The position numbers and the translations under genes were made by a program. Under the pieces are notes generated by a model. It made no database searches and was not told where the DNA came from. It worked only from the letters and a program-made list of their open reading frames with translations. Shown here one piece after another: positions 4,514-34,449 of a stretch of DNA of 37,155 nucleotides (positions are counted from its first letter, which is position 1; each line of letters opens with the position of its first letter). Origin of the DNA: Thermodesulfobacteriota bacterium (GTDB lineage Bacteria; Desulfobacterota; Thermodesulfobacteria; Thermodesulfobacteriales; Thermodesulfobacteriaceae); NCBI GenBank assembly GCA_030578315.1, contig JAUQQL010000015.1, positions 1 through 37,155 of the forward strand, given 5' to 3'.

Positions 4514-5446
4514 CTAAAGTTTAGAATAGATAAATTCTAGAAGACCTTTTACCTCTACTGAAAAATCTAAAAAGTACAAATTAGGAGATGGTTTTAATTT
4601 AACCCCGTCTTTAAGGGTAGTTAAATAATTTTCTTGAGGTAGAAGATTAAAGTTTTCGTAAAAATGATGGTCTGGAAAAGAAATAAACTTTTTTACTTTT
4701 ATTCCGAGTTTTTTGAGAACTTTTAAAAACTGTTGGTTATCTCCCAATCCACAAAAGGCTATAAATTCTTTTTCTTGATAGTTTTTTAAAATTTTTCCTT
4801 CTGAATCAATAACTTTCCAGTCTTTTCGGTAAAGTTTAAAAGTAGGTTTATCTTTGAGTTGTAAATCAAAAGGTTCAATTTCTTGATAGCTTAGTATTAT
4901 GGCGTCTGCTCTTTTTAAATTTTCTAAAGGTTCTCTTAATCTTCCCCAAGGAAAAAGTCTAGCTTTTAAGTCTTCTTTTTTTAGAAGAACCAAATCAATA
5001 TCTTTTTTAAGTCTTATATATTGGAATCCGTCATCCAATAAAATTAAATCTCCTTTAAGTTCTCTTACTGCTACTTCTCCTCCTCTAACTCTATCTTCGT
5101 CTACTATTATGCTTACCTTTAAATCTTTTTTTTCTACTAATTTAGCTAATAAGTAGGGTTCATCTCCTGCATTTCTCCAATTTTCTAATATTTTTCCTTT
5201 AAAAGAAACTATTAAAGTTCCCTTACTTTTTCTTTTATATCCTCTAGAAAGAATAACTACATGGTACTTAGAAGATAGTTTTTCACATAGAAACTTTACT
5301 AAACTAGTTTTTCCTGTACCTCCTAAAGAAAGATTTCCTACTGAAATAACTGGAATTTTAAGTTGATAGATTTTTAAGAAAGTTTTTTGATAAGCTAAGT
5401 TTCTTAGTTTTAAAAGGTAAAAATAGGGATTTAAAAAGTTGAGCAT
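4514..5446 (-). CDS. lpxK: tetraacyldisaccharide 4'-kinase (lipid A synthesis)
   Basis: Phosphorylates the 4' position of the lipid A disaccharide at the inner face of the cytoplasmic membrane. The 310 residues match the usual LpxK length. Visible signatures are ISVGNLSLGGTGKTSLV (P-loop, around residues 35-51), LSRGYKRKSKG, NAGDEPYLLA, LLDDGFQY and FPWGRLREPL, all typical of the family. A hydrophobic N-terminal segment (LNFLNPYFYLLKLRN) would anchor it to the membrane. It starts 5 bp after the flippase-like gene and is presumably co-transcribed with it. It is firm evidence for a Gram-negative outer membrane. Confidence 0.95.
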   Translation of the reverse strand: MLNFLNPYFYLLKLRNLAYQKTFLKIYQLKIPVISVGNLSLGGTGKTSLVKFLCEKLSSKYHVVILSRGYKRKSKGTLIVSFKGKILENWRNAGDEPYLLAKLVEKKDLKVSIIVDEDRVRGGEVAVRELKGDLILLDDGFQYIRLKKDIDLVLLKKEDLKARLFPWGRLREPLENLKRADAIILSYQEIEPFDLQLKDKPTFKLYRKDWKVIDSEGKILKNYQEKEFIAFCGLGDNQQFLKVLKKLGIKVKKFISFPDHHFYENFNLLPQENYLTTLKDGVKLKPSPNLYFLDFSVEVKGLLEFIYSKL

Positions 5447-11300: not shown

Positions 11301-12323
11301 ATGTTGAAAAAAGAATTTATAGAGCTAGCTTGGAAACGTTTAGATTCTTTGACTAAACCTAAAAGAAGTCTTGGAAGGCTTGAAGAGGTTGCAGTGCAAC
11401 TTGTGGCTATTTATGAAAACCTCATGCCGGAGCTTCCTAAAAAAGTTGTTTTGGTTTTTGCTGGAGACCATGGAATTGTAGAAGAAGGAGTTTCAGCTTA
11501 TCCTAAAGAAGTTACTGCTCAAATGGTCTTTAACTTTTTAAGAGGAGGAGCAGGAATTAATGTTTTGGCAAGACATGTAGGAGCAGAAGTTGTGGTAATA
11601 GATGTGGGAGTTGATTATGAGTTTGAAAATCTAAAAGGGCTTTTAAATAAAAAAGTAATGAAAGGAACTAAAAATTTTTTAAAAGAAAAAGCTATGTCTT
11701 TAAATGAAGCACAAAAAGTAATAGAAGTGGGAAAAGAAACTGCAAAAGAGATTATAGAGCAAGGATTTAATCTTATAGGTTTAGGAGATATGGGAATAGG
11801 AAATACTACGGCTTCCTCAGCTATTACAGCAGTTATAACTGGAAAACCGGTTGAAGAAGTTACAGGAAAAGGAACGGGTATAACCGAAACCATGCATAAA
11901 AAAAAGATAGAAATCATTAAAAAAGCCATAGAGTTTCATAAACCTGACCCTGAAGATGTACTTGATGTGTTAAGTAAAGTTGGAGGAGCTGAAATTGGAG
12001 CTATTGCAGGAGCCTGTCTTGCTTGTGCTGAAAACAAAATTCCTGTAGTAATAGATGGTTTCATTTCTTCGGCAGGTGCTTTAATTGCTTATAAAATAAA
12101 TCCTGAAGTTAAAGACTATATTATTGCTTCTCATAGATCTGAAGAAGTAGGGCATCAAGCTATACTTGATTATATGGGTCTTAAACCTCTTTTGGACCTA
12201 AATCTAAGACTTGGAGAGGGAACTGGGGCAGCTCTTGCTATGTTAATTATAGATGGAGCCCTAAAGATTTACCGAGAAATGGCTACCTTTGAATCTGCTA
12301 AGGTTTCAACTTCTATAATATAA
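11301..12323 (+). CDS. cobT: nicotinate-nucleotide:dimethylbenzimidazole phosphoribosyltransferase
   Basis: 340 residues. It activates the lower-ligand base of cobalamin by moving phosphoribose from NaMN. Signatures: FAGDHGIVEEGVSAYP, RGGAGINVLARH, GLGDMGIGNTTASSA, and the C-terminal RLGEGTGAAL with the catalytic glutamate. GGGGGAAAG precedes the ATG. First gene of the corrinoid operon; cobS starts only 2 bp after its stop. Final-stage genes thus come first and ring-building genes later. No lower-ligand synthesis gene (bzaF, bluB) is in the window, so the native base cannot be told. Confidence 0.97.
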   Translation: MLKKEFIELAWKRLDSLTKPKRSLGRLEEVAVQLVAIYENLMPELPKKVVLVFAGDHGIVEEGVSAYPKEVTAQMVFNFLRGGAGINVLARHVGAEVVVIDVGVDYEFENLKGLLNKKVMKGTKNFLKEKAMSLNEAQKVIEVGKETAKEIIEQGFNLIGLGDMGIGNTTASSAITAVITGKPVEEVTGKGTGITETMHKKKIEIIKKAIEFHKPDPEDVLDVLSKVGGAEIGAIAGACLACAENKIPVVIDGFISSAGALIAYKINPEVKDYIIASHRSEEVGHQAILDYMGLKPLLDLNLRLGEGTGAALAMLIIDGALKIYREMATFESAKVSTSII

Positions 12324-12325
12324 AA

Positions 12326-13117
12326 ATGTTTAAAAGTATAGTTTTAGCTTTTTCATTTTTAACTCAAATACCTTTAAAAATTTCTGAAGTCAAAGAAAGA
12401 GAACTTATCTTTGCTTTAAGTTTTTTTCCTTTAGTTGGTCTATTTGAAGGACTCTGGTTAAATCTAGTAGCCTATATAAATTGTTTCTTTTTATCGCCTG
12501 AACTAAACTCTCTTCTTTGTATTATAGCTCTTACTTTGGTCAGAGGAATTTTTCACTGGGATGGATTTTCTGATACTGTGGATGCACTTTGTATTAAAAG
12601 CTGTGGAGATTATGTTAAGGATGTGGAGAAAAGACTTCAAGTTATGAAGGACAGTACAGTGGGCGTAGGAGGGGTTGTAGCTTTGATTATAAATTTTTTA
12701 TTAAGATTTATTTTACTTAAAGAAGTTATTATAAATAGTTTTTTCCCCTTTGTCCTTATTTTAAGCTCGGTTCTTTCCAAAGGTTTAATAGTTCCGATTA
12801 TTTATCTTTCCAAACCTGCTAAAAAAGAAGGGATAGGAGCTTTTTTAATTTCTTTTGTAACCTTTAGAGAAGTGCTTTTAGCTTTAACTTTTACTTTTTT
12901 AATTATTTTAGTTTGCGTTTTTTTATTTTCTTTAAGTTATCATCAAGTGTTTTTTTTGATTTTTTCAATTTTTTTGATTTTTCTTTTGGGTTTTTGGATT
13001 AAAAAATTTTTGGAAAAAAGATTTTTAGGTCTTACTGGAGACAATTTTGGTGCTCTTATGGAGTTTTTTGAAATAAGTTTTCTTTTCTTTTGGGGTACTT
13101 TATGGCTAAAACTTTAA
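12326..13117 (+). CDS. cobS: adenosylcobinamide-GDP ribazoletransferase (cobalamin synthase)
   Basis: 263-residue integral membrane enzyme that joins activated cobinamide to alpha-ribazole (phosphate) in the last assembly step. Diagnostic stretch: RGIFHWDGFSDTVDAL, followed by DSTVGVGGVVALI and, near the end, GLTGDNFGALMEFFE. The rest is hydrophobic with about six membrane segments. It starts 2 bp after cobT. The 3' end overlaps cbiP by 16 bp. Confidence 0.95.
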   Translation: MFKSIVLAFSFLTQIPLKISEVKERELIFALSFFPLVGLFEGLWLNLVAYINCFFLSPELNSLLCIIALTLVRGIFHWDGFSDTVDALCIKSCGDYVKDVEKRLQVMKDSTVGVGGVVALIINFLLRFILLKEVIINSFFPFVLILSSVLSKGLIVPIIYLSKPAKKEGIGAFLISFVTFREVLLALTFTFLIILVCVFLFSLSYHQVFFLIFSIFLIFLLGFWIKKFLEKRFLGLTGDNFGALMEFFEISFLFFWGTLWLKL

Positions 13118-14598
13118 TGATTCAAGGAACTTCTTCCGGTGCAGGAAAGTCCCTTTTAGTTATGGCTCTGTGTAGAATAGCTCAAAAGAATGGTTTTAAA
13201 GTTGCTCCTTTTAAGGCTCAGAACATGAGTTTACAAAGTTATATTACTTTAGAGGGAGGAGAAATAGGCCTTGCCCAAGCTTTACAAGCCAAAGCTTGTA
13301 AAGTAGAACCGGAAGTTCATTTTAATCCGATTTTGTTAAAAGCTTCAGGTAAACAAGGTTCTCAGGTAATTGTTCATGGAAAAGTTTACAAAACTTTAAA
13401 ACCAAAAGATTATTATAAGGAAAGGGATATTCTTTGGGAATATGTAAAAAAGTCTTTAGAAATTTTGAATCAAAAATACGAACTTGTAATTATAGAAGGT
13501 GCTGGAAGTCCTGCAGAAATTAATCTTTTAGAGGATGAAATAGTTAACATGGCAGTGGCTGAATTTCTTAACTCCCCTGTTATTCTAGTGGGAGATATAG
13601 ACAAAGGAGGAGTTTTTGCTTCGCTTTATGGAACAGCTGAACTTCTTAAGTTGTACAAGAAAAAATACTTTGAACTTATAAAAGGATATATAATAAACAA
13701 GTTTAGAGGAGAGCTCGAAATTTTAATGCCTGGAATTGAAAAAATAAACACGCTTTTAGGAAAACCTTGTTTTGGAGTTTTACCTTACTTTGAAAATCTA
13801 GCTATCTCGGAAGAAGATGGATTTGCACTTCCTTATTTCGTACAAAAACTTGTCTCCCATGCTGAAACTGTAAGAATAGTTGTTTTGAGATTAAAATACA
13901 TTTCTAACTTTTACGACTTTGACCCGTTTAAATACGAACCTGATGTGGAACTTATCTATTCTTTAAGAAAAGAAGATCTTCTAAACGCAGACATTATTAT
14001 TATTCCTGGAAGTAAAAAAACCGTAGAGGACCTTTTCTTGCTCAGAAAGTTACATCTAGATGAAACTCTAAAAGAAGCAGTTAAAAAAGGTATAGAAGTT
14101 ATAGGAGTGTGTGGAGGTTTTCAAATGCTTGGTGAAGTTATTAGAGACCCTGATAGTATTGAAAGTTCCTTAAAAGAAGTTAAAGGATTGGGATTCCTTG
14201 AAGTTGAAACAGTTTTTTATCCACAAAAAATAACTACTCAAGTTTCAGCTACTTATCTTAAGAATCCTTCTCTCGGTTCTCTTTGGGGATATGAAATTCA
14301 CATGGGAATAACTCAAGGAGATTTAAATCTTTTTAAGATTAAAAGATTTACAAGTTTAGAAGAAACTGTTGAGGGTTCTCAAAGAGGTTTTGTTTGGGGA
14401 AGCTATATTCACGGAATTTTTCATAACGACCAATTTAGAAGATACATTATAAATCAACATAGAGTTAAAAAAGGACTTTCACCTATTGCTCAAACTTACT
14501 CTTATTCAGAATTTCAAGAGCGAGAAATAGAAAAACTTGCACAACTAGTTGAAAAATATTTAAATGTAGAAGCTATTTTTAAATTAATAGAGAAATGA
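13102..14598 (+). CDS. cbiP: cobyric acid synthase (glutamine-dependent amidase)
   Basis: Amidates side chains b, d, e and g of adenosylcobyrinate a,c-diamide, using glutamine and ATP. I chose ATG at 13102, giving MAKTLMIQGTSSGAGKS, rather than an upstream TTG at 13090, because family members begin almost directly with the P-loop strand. Length is 498 residues. The N-terminal synthetase domain has GTSSGAGKS and FKAQNMSLQS. The C-terminal class I glutamine amidotransferase-like domain has GVCGGFQMLG with the nucleophilic Cys and a late GSYIHGIF with the catalytic His. It overlaps both cobS and cbiB. Also called cobQ. Confidence 0.96.
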   Translation: MAKTLMIQGTSSGAGKSLLVMALCRIAQKNGFKVAPFKAQNMSLQSYITLEGGEIGLAQALQAKACKVEPEVHFNPILLKASGKQGSQVIVHGKVYKTLKPKDYYKERDILWEYVKKSLEILNQKYELVIIEGAGSPAEINLLEDEIVNMAVAEFLNSPVILVGDIDKGGVFASLYGTAELLKLYKKKYFELIKGYIINKFRGELEILMPGIEKINTLLGKPCFGVLPYFENLAISEEDGFALPYFVQKLVSHAETVRIVVLRLKYISNFYDFDPFKYEPDVELIYSLRKEDLLNADIIIIPGSKKTVEDLFLLRKLHLDETLKEAVKKGIEVIGVCGGFQMLGEVIRDPDSIESSLKEVKGLGFLEVETVFYPQKITTQVSATYLKNPSLGSLWGYEIHMGITQGDLNLFKIKRFTSLEETVEGSQRGFVWGSYIHGIFHNDQFRRYIINQHRVKKGLSPIAQTYSYSEFQEREIEKLAQLVEKYLNVEAIFKLIEK

Positions 14599-15596
14599 CC
14601 ATTTTTGAATACTTCAAAGTTGAAATATGGGAAATAATTTTGGCCTTTTTTCTTGATCTATTAATAGGAGACCCTAAGTTTGTGCCTCATCCTGTGGTTG
14701 GGATCGGAAAACTTATAGAAAAAACTGAAAACTTTTTACGAAAGATTTCTCTTTCGGAAAGAATTTTAGGTGTTATATTATTCTTAGTGGTAAATATAGT
14801 CGTTTTTCTTTTAACCTTTCTAGTTTTATATTTAATATTCTTAGGAAAAAATTCTAGTTATTTGGAATTAAAATTTTTTTCAGAAGTTATTTTTATTTTT
14901 TTGATAAGTCAGTTTTTAGCTTTAAAAGGATTAATTGAGGAAGCAAAAAGAGTAGAAAATTTTTTAATTTCTGGAGACTTGATTTCTGCTCGTAGAGCTT
15001 TGAAAGCTCTTGTTGGGAGAGATACAGAAAAGCTTTCAGAAAAAAAAATAAAAACTGCTGTAGCAGAAAGTCTTTCTGAGAATTTAAATGACGCTGTTAT
15101 AGCTCCACTTTTTTATCTTTTTTTGGGTGGATTTCCTGGAATAGTTTTTTATAAAACCTTAAACACCCTTGACTCTATGGTAGGATACAGAGACGAAAAA
15201 TATTTGAATTTTGGATGGTTTTCAGCTAAAATGGATGACCTTATAAATTATTTTCCTGCAAGAATAGCTGGTTTGATGATAGTTATGAGTTCTTTTATTT
15301 TAGGTGGCTTTGCTTCTGCTAAAAGGTCTTTTATTACTATGATAAAAGACGGAAAAAAGCATTTAAGTCCTAATAGTGGTATTCCAGAAGCAGCTTTAGC
15401 TGGATTTCTTGGAATTCAAATGGGAGGACCACACTTTTATAGGGGAGTTTTAATTGAAAAACCTTATATTGGTGAAGAGCGTATTACAGATTATTCTTCT
15501 ATAATAATGACTTCGTGTAAAATAGTTATACTTTCTTCTTTTTTATTTCTTGTTTGGGCTATTTTTTTTAAAATAATCTTTGAGGTTCTTAGATAA
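14595..15596 (+). CDS. cbiB: adenosylcobinamide-phosphate synthase CbiB/CobD family
   Basis: 333-residue membrane protein that attaches aminopropanol phosphate to adenosylcobyric acid. Signatures: DLLIGDPKFVPHPVVGIGKLI near the N-terminus, RRALKALVGRDTEKL, AVAESLSENLNDAVIAPLFY, NTLDSMVGYRDEKY and the late NSGIPEAALAGFLGIQMGG. Several membrane segments. ATGA overlap with cbiP and a 1-base overlap with the next gene show translational coupling. Confidence 0.96.
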   Translation: MTIFEYFKVEIWEIILAFFLDLLIGDPKFVPHPVVGIGKLIEKTENFLRKISLSERILGVILFLVVNIVVFLLTFLVLYLIFLGKNSSYLELKFFSEVIFIFLISQFLALKGLIEEAKRVENFLISGDLISARRALKALVGRDTEKLSEKKIKTAVAESLSENLNDAVIAPLFYLFLGGFPGIVFYKTLNTLDSMVGYRDEKYLNFGWFSAKMDDLINYFPARIAGLMIVMSSFILGGFASAKRSFITMIKDGKKHLSPNSGIPEAALAGFLGIQMGGPHFYRGVLIEKPYIGEERITDYSSIIMTSCKIVILSSFLFLVWAIFFKIIFEVLR

Positions 15597-16708
15597 TGGA
15601 ATATTTATTTAAAAAATTTTTGCATGGTGGATATATCTTTCAGGTAGCAAAATTAATTTCTAAAAGTCCCGAAGACCTTATAGATTTTAGTTCTTCTGTA
15701 AATCCTTTTAATTTTTTTTATCATCTTATACCAGACCGTAAAAAACTTTCTTTTCTTTTAAACAAATATCCAGACCCTGAAGCTTTAGAAGTTCGTGAGG
15801 CTGTTTCAGAAGTTTATCAAATTCCTTTAGAATGTATTCTTTGTGGAAATGGTTCTATGGAACTGATATACTTAGTTCTTAGAAGTTTTTCCTGGAACTC
15901 GGTTCTAATCTGGGAACCTACTTTTACTGAATATTATAGAGGTTGTAAAGTTTATAAAATTTCAAAAGTGAAAAGAATTTTTAGTCTTAATTTAAAAGAA
16001 GGATTAGAGAAGCTTCAGGAAGAACTTTCTAAAAATTATAAAATTCAGGCAGTTTTTATTTGTAATCCTAACAATCCAACCGGATGGGTTATTAAAAAAG
16101 AAATACTGCTAAAATTGATAGAAAAGTTTCCTTCGGTTGTATTTTTAGTGGATGAAGCTTTTATAGACTTTGTTCCTGAGGAGAGTCTTGTTAGGGAAGC
16201 AGTTTCTTATCTTAATCTTGTGGTTTTTCGTTCACTTACCAAATTTTTTGGTTTAGCTGGTATAAGGTTAGGTTATCTAGTTGCCCACTCTAAAATTGTT
16301 CAAAAACTAAAAGTTTATCAGGAACCTTGGAGTGTGAATTCACTTGCCCAATTTTTGGGAAGCAGATTTATTAAAAATGCTCAACTTATTCAAAAAACCT
16401 TAGCTCTTTTTAAAAAAGAAAAAAAATATTTGGAAAAATTTTTTAAAAAATTAAACTTAAGTTATTTTCCTAGTGTAGCTAATTTTTATCTTTTTTATCT
16501 TGAAAATGGAGCAGATTTTACGGAATATCTTTTAAAGAAAGGAATTCTTATAAGAAACTGTTATAATTTTTACGGGTTAAACGAAAATTACCTTAGGATT
16601 TCAGTTAGAAAAAGAGATGAAAATAAAAAGTTTTTAGAGGAGCTTAAGAGGTGGTTAAAGGTTTTTTGGTTGCGGGAACCCACAGTGGATGTGGGAAAAC
16701 CACGGTAA
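15596..16708 (+). CDS. cobD: L-threonine-O-3-phosphate decarboxylase (PLP enzyme, HisC-like)
   Basis: 370 residues. Makes (R)-1-amino-2-propanol phosphate, the linker used by CbiB. Fold-type I aminotransferase signatures: FSSSVNPFN near the start, CGNGSMELIYL, CNPNNPTGW, VDEAFIDFVPEESL, and SLTKFFGLAGIRLGYLVA with the PLP lysine. HGGYIFQVA and its operon position separate it from histidinol-phosphate aminotransferase. The 5' end follows cbiB with a 1-base overlap. The last 19 residues (RWLKVFWLREPTVDVGKPR) lie in the overlap with cbiA, and family members normally end around the EELKRWL helix, so the tail looks like a run-on. Confidence 0.93.
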   Translation: MEYLFKKFLHGGYIFQVAKLISKSPEDLIDFSSSVNPFNFFYHLIPDRKKLSFLLNKYPDPEALEVREAVSEVYQIPLECILCGNGSMELIYLVLRSFSWNSVLIWEPTFTEYYRGCKVYKISKVKRIFSLNLKEGLEKLQEELSKNYKIQAVFICNPNNPTGWVIKKEILLKLIEKFPSVVFLVDEAFIDFVPEESLVREAVSYLNLVVFRSLTKFFGLAGIRLGYLVAHSKIVQKLKVYQEPWSVNSLAQFLGSRFIKNAQLIQKTLALFKKEKKYLEKFFKKLNLSYFPSVANFYLFYLENGADFTEYLLKKGILIRNCYNFYGLNENYLRISVRKRDENKKFLEELKRWLKVFWLREPTVDVGKPR

Positions 16709-17940
16709 CACTGGGACTTTTAAGCGTTTTTAAAAAAAAAGGATTTAAGGTTCAACCTTTTAAGGTGGGACCAGATTATATTGATACTGCTTGGCACAGA
16801 GTAGTTTGCGGGAATCCCTCAATAAATCTTGATCTTTTTGCTATGGAAAAAGACTTAGAAGCTTGGTTTCTAAAGTATGCTTTAAAAGCCGAACTAAATA
16901 TTGTGGAAGGAGTTATGGGACTTTTTGATGGCAATTTTTCTTCCTTCAAACTTGCTAAAAGACTTGGATTGCCCATAATTTTAGTTTTAGATACTTTTGG
17001 TATGGCAGAAACTGTAGAAGCTATAGCTCTTGGTTTTAAAAAACTTTTAGAAAAAGAAAAGCTTGAACTTTACTTAGTTTTAAATAGGGTTTCCTCAGAG
17101 AGACACCTTTTAAGACTCCTTAAAGCTTTAAAGGATTTTCAGGTAGTTGGATTTCTTTTTAGAAAAAGTGAGGTGTCTATTCCTTCTAGGCACCTTGGAC
17201 TTTTTATGCCAGAAAAAGAAGTACCTTCAAAATATTTTTTAAATTCCTTGGAAGAAGAAATAGAAAAAAATTTTGATCTTGAGCTTTTGTTAAGCCTTAG
17301 GTCTTATAAAAACTTTAAAATCTCAAATTGTTTACTTTCAAATTTTGAATTTCCTTTTTCCAAAATAGCTATAGCTTACGATTTAGCTTTTTGTTTTTAT
17401 TATAATCACTTTCTTGACTTACTTTCTGAAAAAGTTCAGGTTTGCTATTTTAGTCCCCTTAGTAACAAAAGCCTTCCTTCTGAGGTTGACGCAGTTTATA
17501 TTGGAGGAGGTTATCCGGAACTTTATGCAGAGGCTTTGGCAGAAAACGAAACCTTAAAAAAGGATATTAAAATTTGGGTTGAAGAAGGTAATCTTCTTTA
17601 TGCTGAGTGTGGAGGATTGATATACCTTTCTCAAAATCTTTTGTACCAAGGGAAAAATTATCCGATGGTTGGAATATTTCCTGTAAGAGTTGAAATGAAA
17701 GGACTTCATCTTGGATACCGTGAAGTCTTTCCTAAAAAGGAAGGACAGTTTTTAGTAAATTCAACATTTAGAGGTCACGAATTTCATTATACTTCAGTAA
17801 CTGAGCTTTCCGAGATTCAAAAAGCTTTTTTAGTTAAGGACTTAGAAGGAAATGTTTGGGAAGAAGGATATAGCTATAAAAATACACTGGCAACCTATGT
17901 TCATTTTATAAACTTAATTAATTATGAGGAGGAAATTTAG
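16651..17940 (+). CDS. cbiA: cobyrinic acid a,c-diamide synthase
   Basis: 429 residues. Glutamine-dependent amidation of the a and c side chains, the first amidations after the corrin ring is finished. GTG start at 16651, with AGAGGAG 8 bp upstream inside cobD, gives MVKGFLVAGTHSGCGKTT. The P-loop is followed by PFKVGPDYIDTAWH and GVMGLFDG. The C-terminal amidotransferase domain has YIGGGYPELYAE and AECGGLIYLS (nucleophilic Cys), ending in TYVHFINLI. It overlaps cobD by 58 bp, an unusually long overlap that contains the whole P-loop. The next ATG follows the stop with no gap. Confidence 0.96.
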   Translation: MVKGFLVAGTHSGCGKTTVTLGLLSVFKKKGFKVQPFKVGPDYIDTAWHRVVCGNPSINLDLFAMEKDLEAWFLKYALKAELNIVEGVMGLFDGNFSSFKLAKRLGLPIILVLDTFGMAETVEAIALGFKKLLEKEKLELYLVLNRVSSERHLLRLLKALKDFQVVGFLFRKSEVSIPSRHLGLFMPEKEVPSKYFLNSLEEEIEKNFDLELLLSLRSYKNFKISNCLLSNFEFPFSKIAIAYDLAFCFYYNHFLDLLSEKVQVCYFSPLSNKSLPSEVDAVYIGGGYPELYAEALAENETLKKDIKIWVEEGNLLYAECGGLIYLSQNLLYQGKNYPMVGIFPVRVEMKGLHLGYREVFPKKEGQFLVNSTFRGHEFHYTSVTELSEIQKAFLVKDLEGNVWEEGYSYKNTLATYVHFINLINYEEEI

Positions 17941-18909
17941 ATGGAAAAAATTGTTTTAGTGTTTCACGGAAGTCCTAGAAGCGAAGCTAATAATGTATTT
18001 TTTTTAATTCCTATTTTGGCTAGAGTTTTAAACAAACCTTGTTCTGATATAAAATTCTCTTTTTTGCAGTTTGGGAAACCATCTTTAAAGGAGGTTTTAG
18101 AAGAAACAGTTAAAGAAAATCCTTTAAGAATTATTGTTCATCCATTTTTTTTGACTGCTGGACAACATGTGTCTTTTGATATTCCTGAAATTATAAGAAA
18201 TTTTGAAAAAAACTATCCAGAAATTAAATTTTTTTATACTCCTCCTTTGGGGATTCATCCTAAAATGGCTGAAATTGTAAAAGAAAGAATAGAGGAAGCT
18301 CTTGGATTTACAGCTGAAAAAATAGAAAAATTAAGTATGGAATTAATTGAAGCAGAAATTGGATTTAGGTTTTCAGATCCTCTAGAAAGGGAGATAGTAA
18401 AAAGGGTTATCCATGCAACTGCTGACCCTGAGTATAGAGAAACCATGTACTTTCATCCCGAAGCTGTTTCAAAAGCTTTAAAACTTTTAAAAGAAGAGAA
18501 AGATATTTTGGTTGATGTGGAAATGGTAAAGACAGGAATAAATAAAAAACTTCTGGAAGGTTCTAAAGTTGTTTGCTATCTTTCAGAGGTTAACGAATCT
18601 GAAACTACACGTTCTGAAAAAGCTATAGAACTTGCCCTAGAGAAAGAAAAAAATATCGGGCTTATAGCCATAGGAAACTCTCCAAGAGCTCTTTTTAAAG
18701 TTATAGAAATTCTTAAAAAAAGAGAAGAAAAAGAGGTAGTAGTAATAGGGATGCCTGTTGGATTTGTTAAAGCCTTTGAGGCTAAAGTTTTACTTTCTCA
18801 ACAAAAATTTCCTTTTATTACAAACTTTAGTCCTAAAGGAGGCACCCCAGCAACAGTTGCTGTTTTAAACGCCATTTTAAAAATGAAAAAGGAGTATTTT
18901 AAACTATGA
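17941..18909 (+). CDS. cbiX-cbiC: fusion: short sirohydrochlorin cobaltochelatase CbiX + cobalt-precorrin-8 methylmutase CbiC
   Basis: 322 residues. Residues 1 to about 118 are a short-form CbiX chelatase: VLVFHGSPRSEAN with metal-ligand His9 and VHPFFLTAGQHVSFDIPEI with His76. It inserts cobalt into sirohydrochlorin, the committing step of the anaerobic route. Residues from about 125 to the end are CbiC: AEIGFRF, RVIHATADPEY (catalytic His158), FHPEAVSKA, VDVEMVKTGI, IAIGNSPRALF, GMPVGFVKAFEAK. It shifts the C11 methyl to C12 to give cobyrinate. The first and one of the last ring steps are thus on one chain. GAGGAGG lies upstream. The linker is short (about 118-128). Confidence 0.94.
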   Translation: MEKIVLVFHGSPRSEANNVFFLIPILARVLNKPCSDIKFSFLQFGKPSLKEVLEETVKENPLRIIVHPFFLTAGQHVSFDIPEIIRNFEKNYPEIKFFYTPPLGIHPKMAEIVKERIEEALGFTAEKIEKLSMELIEAEIGFRFSDPLEREIVKRVIHATADPEYRETMYFHPEAVSKALKLLKEEKDILVDVEMVKTGINKKLLEGSKVVCYLSEVNESETTRSEKAIELALEKEKNIGLIAIGNSPRALFKVIEILKKREEKEVVVIGMPVGFVKAFEAKVLLSQQKFPFITNFSPKGGTPATVAVLNAILKMKKEYFKL

Positions 18910-19655
18910 TTGAAAAAATTTACTTAATAGGAATGGGACCAGGAGATGTAAAGTATCTTACTTTAGAAGCTGTTGAAGTTATCCGCAAACTTAAACTTTT
19001 TTTGATTCCTGTTAAAGCTGGAAAAAAAGAAGCTTTAACTTTAAAAAGAAAAGAGATCATTGCTCAGATAAAACCTGAAAAGGATTATCGTTTATTAGAA
19101 ATTCCTTTTCCCGAGAGAAAAAGAACAGGAAGTTATAAAAAAGAAGTTAAAAAGTGGAGAGAAAGTAAAGCTCAAATTCTTAAAGAAGTTTTAAAAAAGG
19201 AAACAGAAAAAGAAGGGGGGTTTTTAGTATGGGGAGACCCTTCTATTTATGACGGACATCTTGAGATTTTTAAAGAAGTTCAAAAAGAACTCAACTTTTC
19301 TTTAGAAGTTATTCCTGGAATTTCTGCCTTTCAAATTTTAAGTGCTAAACATCAGATTTCTCTCACAGAGATAGGAGGGACTTTAATTTTTACTACCCCG
19401 AGAGGGATTAAAAAATTTACTCAACTACAAGACCGTATAGTAGTTTTTTTGGATAACTATGAAACTTATAAAAATTTTACCTCTCAAAATCTCAAAATTT
19501 ATTGGGGAGCTTATCTTGGAACTCCTGAAGAAATACTTTTTTCGGGAAACTTAAAAGAAGTTCTTCCCCAAATTATAGAACTTAGAAGAAAATTAAGAAA
19601 AGAAAAAGGTTTTATCATGGAAACCTATCTTCTTTCTCCAATTTCAGAATTGTAG
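18906..19655 (+). CDS. cobF: CobF-type precorrin-6A synthase (C1 methyltransferase)
   Basis: 249-residue SAM methylase of the corrin family. It begins IYLIGMGPGDVKYLTLEA, has LVWGDPSIYDG (108-117) and EVIPGIS, then features I associate specifically with CobF: KHQISLTEIGG, WGAYLGTPEEILFSG (200-214) and the tail IMETYLL. In the aerobic pathway CobF removes the C1 acyl group and methylates C1. Here every neighbour is of the anaerobic type, CbiG (which opens the lactone) is present and CbiD, the usual anaerobic C1 methylase, is absent from the window. I infer that it supplies C1 methylation of the cobalt intermediate. ATGA overlap with cbiX-cbiC; 10 bp before cbiE-cbiT. Confidence 0.88.
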   Translation: MIEKIYLIGMGPGDVKYLTLEAVEVIRKLKLFLIPVKAGKKEALTLKRKEIIAQIKPEKDYRLLEIPFPERKRTGSYKKEVKKWRESKAQILKEVLKKETEKEGGFLVWGDPSIYDGHLEIFKEVQKELNFSLEVIPGISAFQILSAKHQISLTEIGGTLIFTTPRGIKKFTQLQDRIVVFLDNYETYKNFTSQNLKIYWGAYLGTPEEILFSGNLKEVLPQIIELRRKLRKEKGFIMETYLLSPISEL

Positions 19656-19665
19656 AGCTCTTTTT

Positions 19666-20886
19666 ATGAAAAATAAAATTTATCTTATAGGAATAGGATT
19701 TAAACCTCTTGAGAAAGAAGCTAAAGATTCTCTTTTAAAAGTTTGTTTGGTCCTTGGATTTAAGAAAACTGTTGAACTTTTTAGAAAAAAATATTCTATT
19801 TATGAAAAAGTAAAATCAAAGATAAAAATCTTAAACAAATTAGAAGAACTTCTACATGAAGCTGAAAGAAGTCTTTCTTTAGGCGATGTTGCTATTTTAG
19901 CTTCAGGTGACCCTCTTTATTTTGGAGTTGGAAAAAAAGTAGTTGAATTTTTTGGAAAAGAAAAAGTAAAAGTTTTTCCAGACTTAAGTTCTTTGCAGAA
20001 AGCTGCTTCTTTAATAAAAGAAAATTGGTGGGAGATCCCTTCCTTAAGTTTTCACAGTCGTCCTCTTAAGCCAGAACTTTTGTTGACCAAACTTTATGCT
20101 TATCAGAAACTTGCTATTCTTACAGACGGATTAAACACTCCTTCAGTTATTGCACGTTGTTTAAAAGAAAAAGGTCTTGAAGAGGAGCTTGAAATTTGGG
20201 TTTTTGAAAAGTTAGGGTCTGAAGAAGAAAAGTTTTTTTGTGGAAATTGTAGTGAAGTGGCTCAGAAAAATTTTGAAGAACCTAATTTTTTAATTTTAAA
20301 CTTAAAAAATAAAAAAAAATATACTTTTGGACTTGAAGAAAAGGAAATTTTACACTCCAAAAGTATGATCACTAAAGATGAAATAAGAGCTGTAGTTTTA
20401 CATAGGCTAAAAATTCCTAAAAATGGAGTTTTTTGGGACATAGGAGCAGGTTCTGGTTCAGTAAGTTTGGAATGTGCACTTTTAAGCCCTGAACTTAAAA
20501 TTTATGCTATAGAAAAAGAACCTTTGGCTTGCGAACTTATCTATCAGAATATAAAAAAATTTAAAACTTTTAATATAAAAGTAGTTAAGGGAATTGCTCC
20601 AGAAATTTTGACAGATCTAGAAAAACCTGATAGAGTTTTTATAGGAGGAAGTGGAGGAAGACTTAAGGAAATTTTAAAATTTTTGGATAATTTAAATAAA
20701 GGATTGCTCTTGGTATTAACAGCCATTTCTTTAGAAACTTTAAATCTTAGTTTAAGTTTTTTTAAAGAAAATAATTGGAAGTTTGAAGTTTCTCATATTG
20801 GAGTAAGCCGTGTAGAGCCTTTAGGTGATAAATTGGTTTTTAAAGCTCAAAATCCTATCTTTGTTATTAAGGCTGAAAAAAAATGA
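19666..20886 (+). CDS. cbiET: fusion CbiE-CbiT: cobalt-precorrin-7 C5-methylase and C15-methylase/C12 decarboxylase
   Basis: 406 residues, equivalent in layout to CobL of the aerobic route. Residues 1 to about 215 are CbiE: IYLIGIGFKPL, LASGDPLYFGVGK (GDP at 81-83), then VFPDLSSLQKAASLI and SFHSRP. Residues from about 230 are CbiT, a Rossmann-type methylase: MITKDEIRAVVLHRLKIP, DIGAGSGSVSLECA (258-271, SAM binding) and a strand-turn RVFIGGSGGRLKEI. The first glycine loop of CbiE is slightly unusual (GIGFKP instead of GxGPG), as is common in CbiE. The ribosome site is weak. ATGA overlap with cbiL. Confidence 0.94.
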   Translation: MKNKIYLIGIGFKPLEKEAKDSLLKVCLVLGFKKTVELFRKKYSIYEKVKSKIKILNKLEELLHEAERSLSLGDVAILASGDPLYFGVGKKVVEFFGKEKVKVFPDLSSLQKAASLIKENWWEIPSLSFHSRPLKPELLLTKLYAYQKLAILTDGLNTPSVIARCLKEKGLEEELEIWVFEKLGSEEEKFFCGNCSEVAQKNFEEPNFLILNLKNKKKYTFGLEEKEILHSKSMITKDEIRAVVLHRLKIPKNGVFWDIGAGSGSVSLECALLSPELKIYAIEKEPLACELIYQNIKKFKTFNIKVVKGIAPEILTDLEKPDRVFIGGSGGRLKEILKFLDNLNKGLLLVLTAISLETLNLSLSFFKENNWKFEVSHIGVSRVEPLGDKLVFKAQNPIFVIKAEKK

Positions 20887-21590
20887 AACTTTTTGTTTTA
20901 GGGGTAGGGCCTGGGGACCCAGAACTTTTAACTCTTAAATCTAAAAAAATTTTAGAAGAAGTTTCGCTTATTTTCTCCCCTACAGGAGGTAAAGACAATA
21001 TCGCTCTTTCAATAGTGGAAAAAGTAATAAATCTAAAAAATAAAAAAGTAGTCAGTATCTACTTTCCAATGAAAAAAACTCGTAAAGAAAGTTTAGAGGC
21101 TCACTGGATAAGTATTGCTGAAAAGATTATAAAAGAGCTTAAAATTTTTAAAAAAGGAGCCTATATAACTCTTGGAGATCCTTCTTTTTACTCTACTTTT
21201 TTTTATATTTATCCATATCTTCGTTTAGAAGTAGAGGTAGAACTCGTTCCAGGGGTAAGTTCGGTTTCCGCAGTAGCTTGTGCTATCCCTTTAAGTTTAT
21301 CCATAGCAGATGAAAAAATAGCTATTTTACCTGCCAATTATTTAACCGAAAAAGACTACCAAAAATATTTATTTAATTTTGATACTTTAGTTTTTATGAA
21401 ACCTTACAAAAACCTTCCAGAAATTACCAAATTTATCTCAAACTTCTTTTCTGATTTAAAAGTTTATTATGTAAAAAGAGCTAGTTTGCCTGAGGAAGAA
21501 ATTTACGAAAATTTATCTCAAGTGCCTGAAAATTCTTTAGACTATTTTTCTGTAGTAATTGTTAAAAAGGAGAAAAAAAATGAAACCTAA
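20883..21590 (+). CDS. cbiL: cobalt-factor II C20-methyltransferase
   Basis: 235 residues. Adds the C20 methyl to cobalt-sirohydrochlorin (factor II), giving factor III, the first methylation after cobalt insertion. Signatures: LGVGPGDPELLTLKSKKIL, a conserved FPM motif (IYFPMKKT), ITLGDPSFYSTFFY and LVPGVSSVSAVACAIPLSL. The length and the GDPSFYSTF form separate it from CbiF and CbiH. Both ends overlap the neighbouring genes. Confidence 0.94.
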   Translation: MKLFVLGVGPGDPELLTLKSKKILEEVSLIFSPTGGKDNIALSIVEKVINLKNKKVVSIYFPMKKTRKESLEAHWISIAEKIIKELKIFKKGAYITLGDPSFYSTFFYIYPYLRLEVEVELVPGVSSVSAVACAIPLSLSIADEKIAILPANYLTEKDYQKYLFNFDTLVFMKPYKNLPEITKFISNFFSDLKVYYVKRASLPEEEIYENLSQVPENSLDYFSVVIVKKEKKNET

Positions 21591-22341
21591 AGTGTATTTT
21601 ATAGGAATGGGACCTGGGGACCCGGAACTTTTAACTCTTAAAGCTTGGAGAATTATTAAGGATTCACAGGTAATTTTATATCCAGGAAGTCTTGCAAATG
21701 CAGAAATGATAGATTTTTTAAAGAAAGAATTACCCACAGCGCAGTTTTACGACTCTGCACCTTTGAAATTGGAAGAAATTATTAAAATAATTGAAACTGC
21801 GGTTTTAAGTAAAAAACAAGTAGCAAGACTTGTTAGTGGTGATCCTTCTTTTTACAGTGCAATTCAGGAGCAAATTGAAATATTAAGAAAAAAAAATATA
21901 GACTATGAAATCATACCCGGCATTTCTTCTGCTTCTGCAGGAGCAAGCAGGTTAGGAATAGAACTTACCTATCCAGAAGTTTCTCATACTGTAATTTTTA
22001 CAAGATTTTTAGGAAAAACCGGGGGAGCAACTCCGGAGGAAATAAAAAGTTTAGCTTTAAAAAAAGCTACATTGGTTTTTTTCTTAAGTGCTTCTTATGT
22101 TAAAGAACTAAAAGAAACTCTTTTAGAAGTTTTACCTTCAGAAACCCCGGTAGCCGTTCTTTATCGAATAACTCAAAAAGAAGAAAAAATACTTATCGGA
22201 ACTTTAGACCAACTCTCAAGTCTTTTGGAAAGAGAAAATATTAAAAAAACTGCTCTTATCTATGTAGGAGAGGTTTTGAAACTTCATTTTCAAAATCTTG
22301 GGAAAAGGTCTAAACTTTATGGAGAACAAAATGGAAGCTAA
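21580..22341 (+). CDS. cbiF: cobalt-precorrin-4 C11-methyltransferase
   Basis: 253 residues from ATG at 21580, which has AAGGAG about 8 bp upstream; a TTG start at 21559 only adds a lysine-rich leader and I reject it. It methylates C11 of the contracted macrocycle. Signatures: VYFIGMGPGDPELLTLKA, LYPGSLANAEM (typical of CbiF/CobM), RLVSGDPSFYSAIQEQ, IIPGISSASAGASRLGIELTYPEVSHT split over the active-site loop, and TRFLGKTGGATPEE. It overlaps cbiL by 11 bp and cbiG-cbiH by 11 bp. Confidence 0.95.
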   Translation: MKPKVYFIGMGPGDPELLTLKAWRIIKDSQVILYPGSLANAEMIDFLKKELPTAQFYDSAPLKLEEIIKIIETAVLSKKQVARLVSGDPSFYSAIQEQIEILRKKNIDYEIIPGISSASAGASRLGIELTYPEVSHTVIFTRFLGKTGGATPEEIKSLALKKATLVFFLSASYVKELKETLLEVLPSETPVAVLYRITQKEEKILIGTLDQLSSLLERENIKKTALIYVGEVLKLHFQNLGKRSKLYGEQNGS

Positions 22342-24067
22342 GTATGTAGTTTTTTATCTTTCAGAAAGAGGGAAGTCTTTAGCAGAAAAGTTAAAAGCTT
22401 TATTAAAAGAAATTAAAATTTTTAGATTGGATACAGAATTAATTTCCAGAAATTGGCAGAAAGATAAAATCTTAATTTTTATCTGTGCCTGTGGAATTGT
22501 AGTAAGAAAGATAGCATCTTTTATAAGAGAAAAAGAAGAAGACCCTGGGGTTTTGGTTATAAATGAAACTGGTAATTATGTAATTCCTATTTTAGGGGGC
22601 CATAGAGTAAAAGCTAATGAAATAGCTCAGAAAATAGCAGACTTTTTTTCAGCTCAGGCTATTATTACTACTGCTTCAGATTCTCTTTCTCTTATTCCTC
22701 TTGACCTATGGATTAAGGAAAAAGGATTTTTAATAAAAAACCCTCATCTTTTACCTGGAATTATGGCCCTTTTTAATCAAAAGGGGACTTTAAAACTTTA
22801 TAAAGAAAAAGCTATTAAAATTCCACTTTTTAAAGGAGCTTATGAAGTTGAAAAAATAGAAGAAGCTGAAATTGTAATCACAAATCGCAGAATTGGTAAA
22901 CCTAAAAAACAACTAATTTTAATTCCAAAGAATTTATGGCTGGGGATAGGTTTTCACGAAAATATAAAAGAAACTTATCTAGAGGAAGCAATAAAAAAAG
23001 TTTTAGAAGAAAGTGAGTTGGAGGAAGGGGCTTTAAAAGGAATTGCAACTTTAGACAAAAAAGCTACTCATCCAGTTCTTTTAAGTTTTTGCGCTAGTAA
23101 AAATCTTAAACTAGTTTCTTTTAGCAAAGAAGAACTGGAAAAAGTTAAAGCCTTAACGCCTTCAAAAAGAGTCTGTGAAGCAGTAGGAGTTGAAAGTGTT
23201 TCAGAACAGGCAGTGCTTTTGGCAAGTAAGGGTACTCTTTTAGTGCCTAAAAGGATTTTCCCAGATTTAACTATAGCTGTAGCTGAAGAAGATTATCAAG
23301 TTAAAGGTAAACTTTATGTAGTAGGAACTGGACCTGGAGATATAAATTATTTAACTTTGAAAGCTTTACAAGTTTTAAGAGAAGTAGAAGTAATTGTAGG
23401 CTACAGAACTTATATTAAACTTTTGGAACCGCTTTTTTATAACAAAGAAGTTTATAGTTTTTCTATGACTGAAGAAATAGAAAGAGCTAAAAAAGCTATA
23501 GCAGAAGCTTTAATAGGAAAAAAGGTGGCTCTTATAAGTGGAGGAGACCCTGGAATTTACGGAATGGCAGGTCTTGTTCTGGAAATTTTGGCTTTTAATA
23601 AAGTGTCTATAGATGTAGAGGTTATTCCTGGGATATCTGCTTTAAATGCTTGTTCAGCTTTAATTGGTGCTCCGCTTATGAACGATTTTGCAGTAATAAG
23701 TCTTTCAGACAGACTCACTCCTTGGAATGAAATAGAAAAAAGGTTAGAACTTTTTGCTCAACTTGATATACCTTTAGTTGTTTATAATCCTAAAAGCCAA
23801 AAAAGAGTTAATCAATTTTTAAGAGCTTGGGAAATTTTAAAATCTTTTAGAAGTCCTGATACAGTAGTTGCCGTAGTAGTTTCAGCCACAAGGGAAAGTC
23901 AAAAAATTTATCTAACTACTTTAAAAGAGCTAAAAGAAGATTGGATAGATATGCACAGCACATTAATTGTAGGAAGTTCACAAAGTTTTTTCTTTGGAAA
24001 GTGGTTTATTACTTCCAGAGGATACAAAAAAAAGTATTCGGAAAATGAATTTCTTTTAAATTTATAA
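22331..24067 (+). CDS. cbiGH: fusion CbiG-CbiH: cobalt-precorrin-5A hydrolase and C17-methyltransferase
   Basis: 578 residues from ATG at 22331, which has GGAG 7 bp upstream; ATG 22319 and TTG 22298 are alternatives with poorer spacing. Residues 1 to about 320 are CbiG: ICACGIVVRKIA, ILGGHRVKANEIA, TASDSLSLIPLDLW, GIGFHENI, and a C-terminal subdomain with TLDKKATHPVL and VCEAVGVESVSEQA. It opens the ring-A lactone and releases acetaldehyde. Residues from about 327 are CbiH: LYVVGTGPGDINYLTLKAL, ISGGDPGIYGMAG, IPGISALNACSALIGAPL, SLSDRLTPW. It performs ring contraction with C17 methylation, making the lactone that CbiG opens. Two consecutive activities sit on one chain. Last gene of the operon; it ends in a 6-bp convergent overlap with marC. 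Confidence 0.95.
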   Translation: MEAKYVVFYLSERGKSLAEKLKALLKEIKIFRLDTELISRNWQKDKILIFICACGIVVRKIASFIREKEEDPGVLVINETGNYVIPILGGHRVKANEIAQKIADFFSAQAIITTASDSLSLIPLDLWIKEKGFLIKNPHLLPGIMALFNQKGTLKLYKEKAIKIPLFKGAYEVEKIEEAEIVITNRRIGKPKKQLILIPKNLWLGIGFHENIKETYLEEAIKKVLEESELEEGALKGIATLDKKATHPVLLSFCASKNLKLVSFSKEELEKVKALTPSKRVCEAVGVESVSEQAVLLASKGTLLVPKRIFPDLTIAVAEEDYQVKGKLYVVGTGPGDINYLTLKALQVLREVEVIVGYRTYIKLLEPLFYNKEVYSFSMTEEIERAKKAIAEALIGKKVALISGGDPGIYGMAGLVLEILAFNKVSIDVEVIPGISALNACSALIGAPLMNDFAVISLSDRLTPWNEIEKRLELFAQLDIPLVVYNPKSQKRVNQFLRAWEILKSFRSPDTVVAVVVSATRESQKIYLTTLKELKEDWIDMHSTLIVGSSQSFFFGKWFITSRGYKKKYSENEFLLNL

Positions 24068-34375: not shown

Positions 34376-34449
34376 CGGGGCGTAGCGCAGCCTGGAAGCG
34401 CACCTGCCTTGGGAGCAGGGGGTCGGAGGTTCAAATCCTCTCGCCCCGA
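34376..34449 (+). tRNA. tRNA-Pro (anticodon UGG)
   Basis: Complete cloverleaf. Acceptor stem CGGGGCG pairs perfectly with CGCCCCG; D stem GCGC/GCGC; anticodon stem CCTGC/GCAGG with loop CTTGGGA (anticodon TGG, followed by G37); T arm GGAGG-TTCAAAT-CCTCT; discriminator A73. C1-G72 and A73 are proline identity features. CCA is not encoded. It forms the left boundary of an integrated element. Confidence 0.97.

Follow-up and report, generated by a model that had tools for sequence, protein, structure and literature searches.

A methyltransferase of the CobF family has probably replaced CbiD as the enzyme that methylates C1 of cobalt-precorrin-5B in the anaerobic, early-cobalt pathway of a Thermodesulfobacteriota bacterium, as judged from gene content, gene order, and comparative sequence analysis. 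A heat-loving anaerobe would, on this account, make B12 by an oxygen-free route with an enzyme family hitherto assigned to the oxygen-using one, and the same substitution of CobF for CbiD appears in other bacterial groups. The window (the whole 37,155-nucleotide stretch analyzed here, from contig JAUQQL010000015.1 of assembly GCA_030578315.1) carries the gene in question, cobF, at positions 18906–19655 of the plus strand, where it encodes a protein of 249 amino acids in the position otherwise held by cbiD. The product scores 246.7 bits against TIGR02434, the curated equivalog model for CobF (cut-off 195.8), and the runner-up family, CbiL/CobI, reaches 89.7 bits against a cut-off of 163.25; its sole Pfam match is PF00590, and the Pfam profile search returned no match to PF01888 (CbiD). 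All 10 further CobFs that were scored, out of 36 full-length sequences, also exceed the TIGR02434 cut-off. The nearest solved structures are 2npn (listed title: CobF) and 3nd1 (precorrin-6A synthase/CobF), and a fold search with the AlphaFold model (mean pLDDT 92.7) ranks 3nd1 first (TM 0.90), ahead of 2npn (0.82) and CbiL (0.69). A tree of 57 proteins, comprising 52 CobFs and five CbiL/CobI sequences as root, with a program warning of long outgroup branches, sets all 52 CobFs apart from CbiL/CobI on a branch supported at 100/100. On profile score, tree, and fold, the product is CobF, a designation in keeping with its residue signature (below); the same three lines of evidence rule out a CbiL or other tetrapyrrole methylase misread as CobF. 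The original prediction had placed a CobF at the C1-methylation step on the strength of CobF-specific segments (WGAYLGTPEEILFSG and a METYLL tail); those segments are present and align with other CobFs, and the profile score, the TM of 0.90 to 3nd1, and the position on the CobF branch, away from CbiL/CobI, all agree with that assignment.

The gene sits within a B12 cluster that spans 11301–24067, entirely on the plus strand. The cluster opens with CobT (11301–12323; TIGR03160, 468 bits, cut-off 319.3), CobS (12326–13117; TIGR00317, 114.3 bits, cut-off 110), the cobyric acid synthase CbiP/CobQ (13090–14598; NF001989, 589.5 bits, cut-off 273), CbiB (14595–15596; TIGR00380, 246.3 bits, cut-off 165.9), the threonine-phosphate decarboxylase CobD (15596–16708; TIGR01140, 299.3 bits, cut-off 290.55), and the a,c-diamide synthase CbiA (16651–17940; NF002204, 402.8 bits, cut-off 254). 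A fusion of the early cobalt chelatase CbiX with the methylmutase CbiC follows (17941–18909; PF01903, 82.8 bits; PF02570, 189.1 bits), and then CobF, a CbiE–CbiT fusion (19666–20886; TIGR02467, 142.8 bits, and TIGR02469, 119.6 bits, both above cut-off), the C20-methyltransferase CbiL (20883–21590; TIGR01467, 201.2 bits, cut-off 163.25), the C11-methyltransferase CbiF (21559–22341; TIGR01465 is its best match, at 241.5 bits below the cut-off of 259.65), and a fusion of CbiG, the cobalt-precorrin-5A hydrolase, with the C17-methyltransferase CbiH (22298–24067; PF11760, 106.4 bits; PF01890, 101.2 bits; TIGR01466, 299.3 bits). The early-cobalt set of the operon thus comprises CbiX, CbiL, CbiF (below cut-off), CbiG, CbiH, CbiE, CbiT, and CbiC, and the profiles agree with the early-cobalt Cbi operon, CbiG included, that had been proposed to surround CobF, with the CbiF call as a best match under its threshold. 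The cobF start codon (ATG) overlaps the stop of the CbiX–CbiC fusion by 4 nucleotides, and 10 bases separate its end from the start of CbiE–CbiT. Its G+C content (30.7%) equals that of its neighbors (29%–33%), and there is therefore no sign of a recent foreign origin. A cobalamin riboswitch was also sought in the window, where Rfam at the gathering score returned only a tRNA (34376–34449).

The absence of CbiD, likewise claimed from the window alone, holds for the whole genome: PF01888 has no match in the window genome (G000; 99.98% complete, 5.17% contamination), and the same model finds matches in 6 of 14 control genomes. Nor does CbiD match in the isolate Thermodesulfobacterium hydrogeniphilum (G043) or in G018, a sister-genus genome assembled into a single contig, and both results speak against a cbiD gene overlooked through genome incompleteness. 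Searches of the window genome for CobG and for CbiJ/CobK were similarly without a match. The missing CbiJ/CobK is a feature of the wider lineage, since 40 of 41 genomes (the window genome and its relatives), CbiD users included, return no match. A loss of CbiJ caused by the exchange of CobF for CbiD can therefore be set aside, and the pattern makes an unrecognized precorrin-6A reductase in this lineage likely.

The distribution of the two methyltransferases among these 41 genomes, comprising G000 and 40 relatives, is one of mutual exclusion. CobF above its cut-off occurs in seven genomes and CbiD in 17, and no genome has both; these counts use matches above the cut-off, as TIGR02434 matches of any strength occur in 35 of the 41 and are mostly weak hits to paralogous methylases. 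The C-terminal CbiG domain (CbiG_C) is found in 26 genomes, including all seven with CobF and 16 of the 17 with CbiD, so that the 26 divide into seven with CobF only, 16 with CbiD only, and three with neither (Fisher p = 1.8e-4 for CobF versus CbiD, uncorrected for kinship). The seven CobF genomes represent 3 of 14 from the window's genus and all four from a second genus of the same family. The other 11 genomes of the window's genus (G001 and G004–G013) are without CbiG_C, CobF above cut-off, and CbiD, and de novo corrin synthesis therefore seems to have been lost in most examined members of the genus. Gene order ties the two enzymes together: CbiC–CobF–CbiET is found in all seven CobF genomes, and CbiC–CbiD–CbiET in seven of nine CbiD loci from sister genera, the two off-order loci being one in which CbiC falls outside the fetched stretch (G025) and one in which CbiET is located elsewhere (G027). 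Because CobF and CbiD share the same slot between CbiC and CbiET, the replacement looks like an exchange in place.

CobF also occurs together with CbiG in genomes of other groups. A scan of genome_contigs with two short peptide patterns, which does not amount to a census, returned 50 loci, 36 of them with full CobFs; the other 14 (L091–L094 and L096–L105) are fragments or other methyltransferases and were excluded from the counts. Among them, L093 stops 34 residues into a CobF, and the 1.1 Mb genome from which it comes (G077) has no match to CbiG or CbiD. By record labels, 25 of the 36 CobFs come from Thermodesulfobacteriota, Desulfobacterota-type or Deltaproteobacteria, Nitrospirae/Nitrospira, one Nitrospinota MAG, and two records labeled "bacterium," and the remaining 11 from Chromatiaceae. 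The 25, together with the window genome and G018, make up a set of 27 CobF/CbiG genomes; of those that lie beyond the window's own family, most are MAGs. CbiG_C and CbiG_N both match in every one of the 27, and CobF and CbiG fall on one fetched stretch at 14 of the 25 scan loci. At one locus (L066:9194–10633), CobF and CbiT share a single 480-residue frame with no CbiE recognized between them, which may be a true gene fusion or may reflect a stretch deleted from the MAG.

CbiD is without a match in 25 of the 27, and the two exceptions are both MAGs. G054 carries a full CbiD on a contig with its own CbiE–CbiT (L145) and CobF on a separate contig with another CbiE–CbiT (L069), and the bin is probably mixed. 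In G056, labeled Deltaproteobacteria, only the start of cbiD is kept (locus L071), as an 81-residue frame at 5070–5315 that begins 458 bases upstream of cobF; it matches PF01888 at 39.0 bits over profile positions 1–54 of 254 and shares 53% identity with a CbiD across 53 positions. The remnant is followed, in a different frame, by a 101-residue stretch that has no Pfam match and a weak likeness to the C-terminus of CbiL (26% across 68 residues, with E = 8e-5 when three sequences were searched). The truncated cbiD and the piece after it (together L071:5070–5527) have the look of a remnant left by the exchange of cbiD for cobF; the arrangement may also be a chimeric assembly. No second cbiD remnant was found beside cobF in the loci searched with CbiD queries, for which L021, L022, L024, and L104 were counted and L092 and L106 (actually CbiE–CbiT) and L023, L026, L027, and L028 (short frames) were dropped.

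What CobF would do in such a pathway depends on its partner. In the anaerobic route, CbiG opens the lactone and acetaldehyde is released before CbiD methylates C1; the CobF of the aerobic route both methylates C1 and brings about loss of the extruded C20 unit (both as given in the consulted portion of PMC7242693). With CbiG expected to perform the deacylation, CobF here would need the methylation half-reaction only. We infer its substrate and chemistry, and the pathway may be pictured as follows. CbiX would insert cobalt into sirohydrochlorin; CbiL, CbiH, and CbiF would take the cobalt-bound intermediate as far as cobalt-precorrin-5A; CbiG would open the ring-A lactone, with the two-carbon unit leaving as acetaldehyde; and CobF would use SAM to methylate C1 of cobalt-precorrin-5B, yielding cobalt-precorrin-6A. 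A reductase not among the recognized genes, CbiT/CbiE, and CbiC would then finish the ring. It is unlikely that CobF instead retains both activities, deacylating and methylating cobalt-precorrin-5A, with CbiG redundant or serving some other role. The enzyme is conserved overall in sequence and fold, with 39 alignment columns invariant across seven CobFs of CbiG genomes and four classical CobFs, which is compatible with a retained double activity; a redundant CbiG, however, should be lost in some genomes, and both of its domains are present in all 27. The 11 Chromatiaceae genomes, which have CobF and CobK, offer a contrast: CbiG_N exceeds a 25-bit cut-off in eight, weakly in six (26.6–43.3 bits) and strongly in two, and is without a match in three. 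The contrast is not a clean one, as CbiG_C matches in 10 of the 11, mostly in short frames. Given the retention of CbiG in all 27, methylation of C1 alone, on cobalt-precorrin-5B, is the economical reading of CobF's role.

A metal-free pathway, in which CobF acts on precorrin-5, CbiX serves siroheme, and cobalt is inserted late by CobN-like chelatases, is improbable. CobN-like matches do occur in 13 of the 27 CobF/CbiG genomes, 11 below threshold and two above it (G043 and G055), so that late insertion is possible in some of them, but the remaining 14 have no CobN match. Across 39 genomes searched, CobG never exceeds its cut-off (weaker matches occur in 13), and CbiJ/CobK matches in none of the 27, compared with all 11 Chromatiaceae genomes; the CbiX of the operon, moreover, is fused to CbiC. 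In the window genome, two CobN-like matches score 605–610 bits, against a cut-off of 822, and a third pair scores 362 and 306 bits; one of these genes adjoins a TonB-type receptor (L140), which suggests a role in transport. In T. hydrogeniphilum, a CobN-like chelatase lies near a CbiK whose N-terminus resembles a signal peptide by eye (L142). The chelatases at these two loci are perhaps involved in metal or tetrapyrrole uptake.

The CobFs of CbiG genomes also carry their own residues in what appears to be the substrate loop. The window CobF reads GDPSIYD-GH at residues 110–118, and GH follows the GDPxxYD motif in 26 of the 27 CobFs from CbiG genomes, with GQ in the remaining one (L081). The same positions hold ST in 12 and SS in two of 14 classical, plasmid-borne CobFs, which were assigned to this class from their family and host (with a cobG neighbor seen in one, L055), and QT in all 11 Chromatiaceae CobFs. 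These residues lie outside the two peptide patterns used for recruitment. We take the GDP motif letters of NirE to be shared with CobF and, counted from that motif, CobF residues 117–118 presumably correspond to NirE 111–112. NirE is a uroporphyrinogen methylase that shares this fold; its loop 103–115 binds both cofactor and substrate, with R111 and the G110 backbone in contact with the ring A and ring D acetate side chains, and an R111K change abolishes 94% of activity (as described in the consulted portion of PMC4731766). By this motif alignment, the class-marking residues 117–118 would fall in the part of the protein that holds the substrate; that His118 acts at the metal or at ring A is a guess. 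Scarcely probable at all is a vestigial or moonlighting CobF, with an unrecognized enzyme methylating C1: CbiJ/CobK also goes undetected in this lineage, so unknown enzymes probably do exist in these pathways, but CobF holds the CbiD operon slot in all seven CobF genomes among the relatives, YD-GH is kept in 26 of 27, and CobF and CbiD are never found together in the 41.

The history of the family is less settled. The classical CobFs form one group (99/99) and the Chromatiaceae CobFs another (100/100), and the two join at 92/96, with the CbiG-partnered CobFs outside the joined group. When the tree is rooted on CbiL/CobI, the classical and Chromatiaceae sequences nest within the CbiG-partnered ones; an alternative tree with the latter as a single clade fits equally well (AU p = 0.55). 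The question raised by the original prediction, whether CobFs from CbiG-containing genomes form a clade of their own, is thus answered in part: they do stand outside the classical and Chromatiaceae CobFs, and a single rooted clade is neither favored nor rejected. It is conceivable, though on balance doubtful, that the CbiG-partnered CobF came first, having arisen as the C1-methyltransferase of the cobalt pathway in anaerobes, and that the aerobic, deacylating CobF descended from it. The Chromatiaceae CobFs (L079, L082–L090, and L095) are the YD-QT group, and their genomes carry CobK and no CobG above cut-off.

We found no prior account of a CobF/CbiG pathway in the literature searched, and a description outside that literature is possible. 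PMC6461909 mentions none of cobF, cbiD, and cbiG. In their consulted portions, PMC545781 and PMC6593275 treat CbiD/CbiG and CobF/CobG as alternative sets and use them to separate the two routes in genome surveys, and PMC3403918 notes a gap at cbiD/cobF in haloarchaea. The combination of CobF with CbiG breaks this survey rule: a genome that has it would be recorded either as missing CbiD or as having a gene of the aerobic route. The combination also provides a natural test of the methylation part of CobF against its deacylation part, and makes the CbiG-partnered CobF a candidate ancestor of the aerobic enzyme.

Among known systems, the aerobic CobF (TIGR02434; 3nd1 and 2npn) shares with the window protein its family, length, fold (TM 0.90), SAM-methyltransferase core, and expected methylation of C1. 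It differs in its partners, which in the window genome are CbiX and CbiG, with no CobG above cut-off and no CobK match; in the substrate loop, where the CobFs of CbiG genomes have YD-GH and the aerobic ones YD-ST or YD-SS; and in the deacylation step, which is expected to fall to CbiG in the window pathway. Compared with the late-cobalt, oxygen-dependent set as a whole, the window genome is without a CobG or CobK match and has CobN-like matches only below cut-off. The anaerobic early-cobalt pathway, by contrast, is present except for CbiD and CbiJ. CbiD (PF01888), the cobalt-precorrin-5B C1-methyltransferase, would occupy the same pathway position as the window CobF, and has the same operon slot and the same CbiG partner; the two belong to different families, the window protein having no PF01888 match, and their exchange would be a non-orthologous replacement. 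The closest parallel, in the portion of PMC3621897 consulted, is that of Methylobacterium extorquens CM4, in which a CbiD within an otherwise aerobic plasmid set led to the suggestion that CbiD and CobF are exchangeable. That exchange runs in the reverse direction, and the CM4 chromosome still has cobF (PMC3621897).
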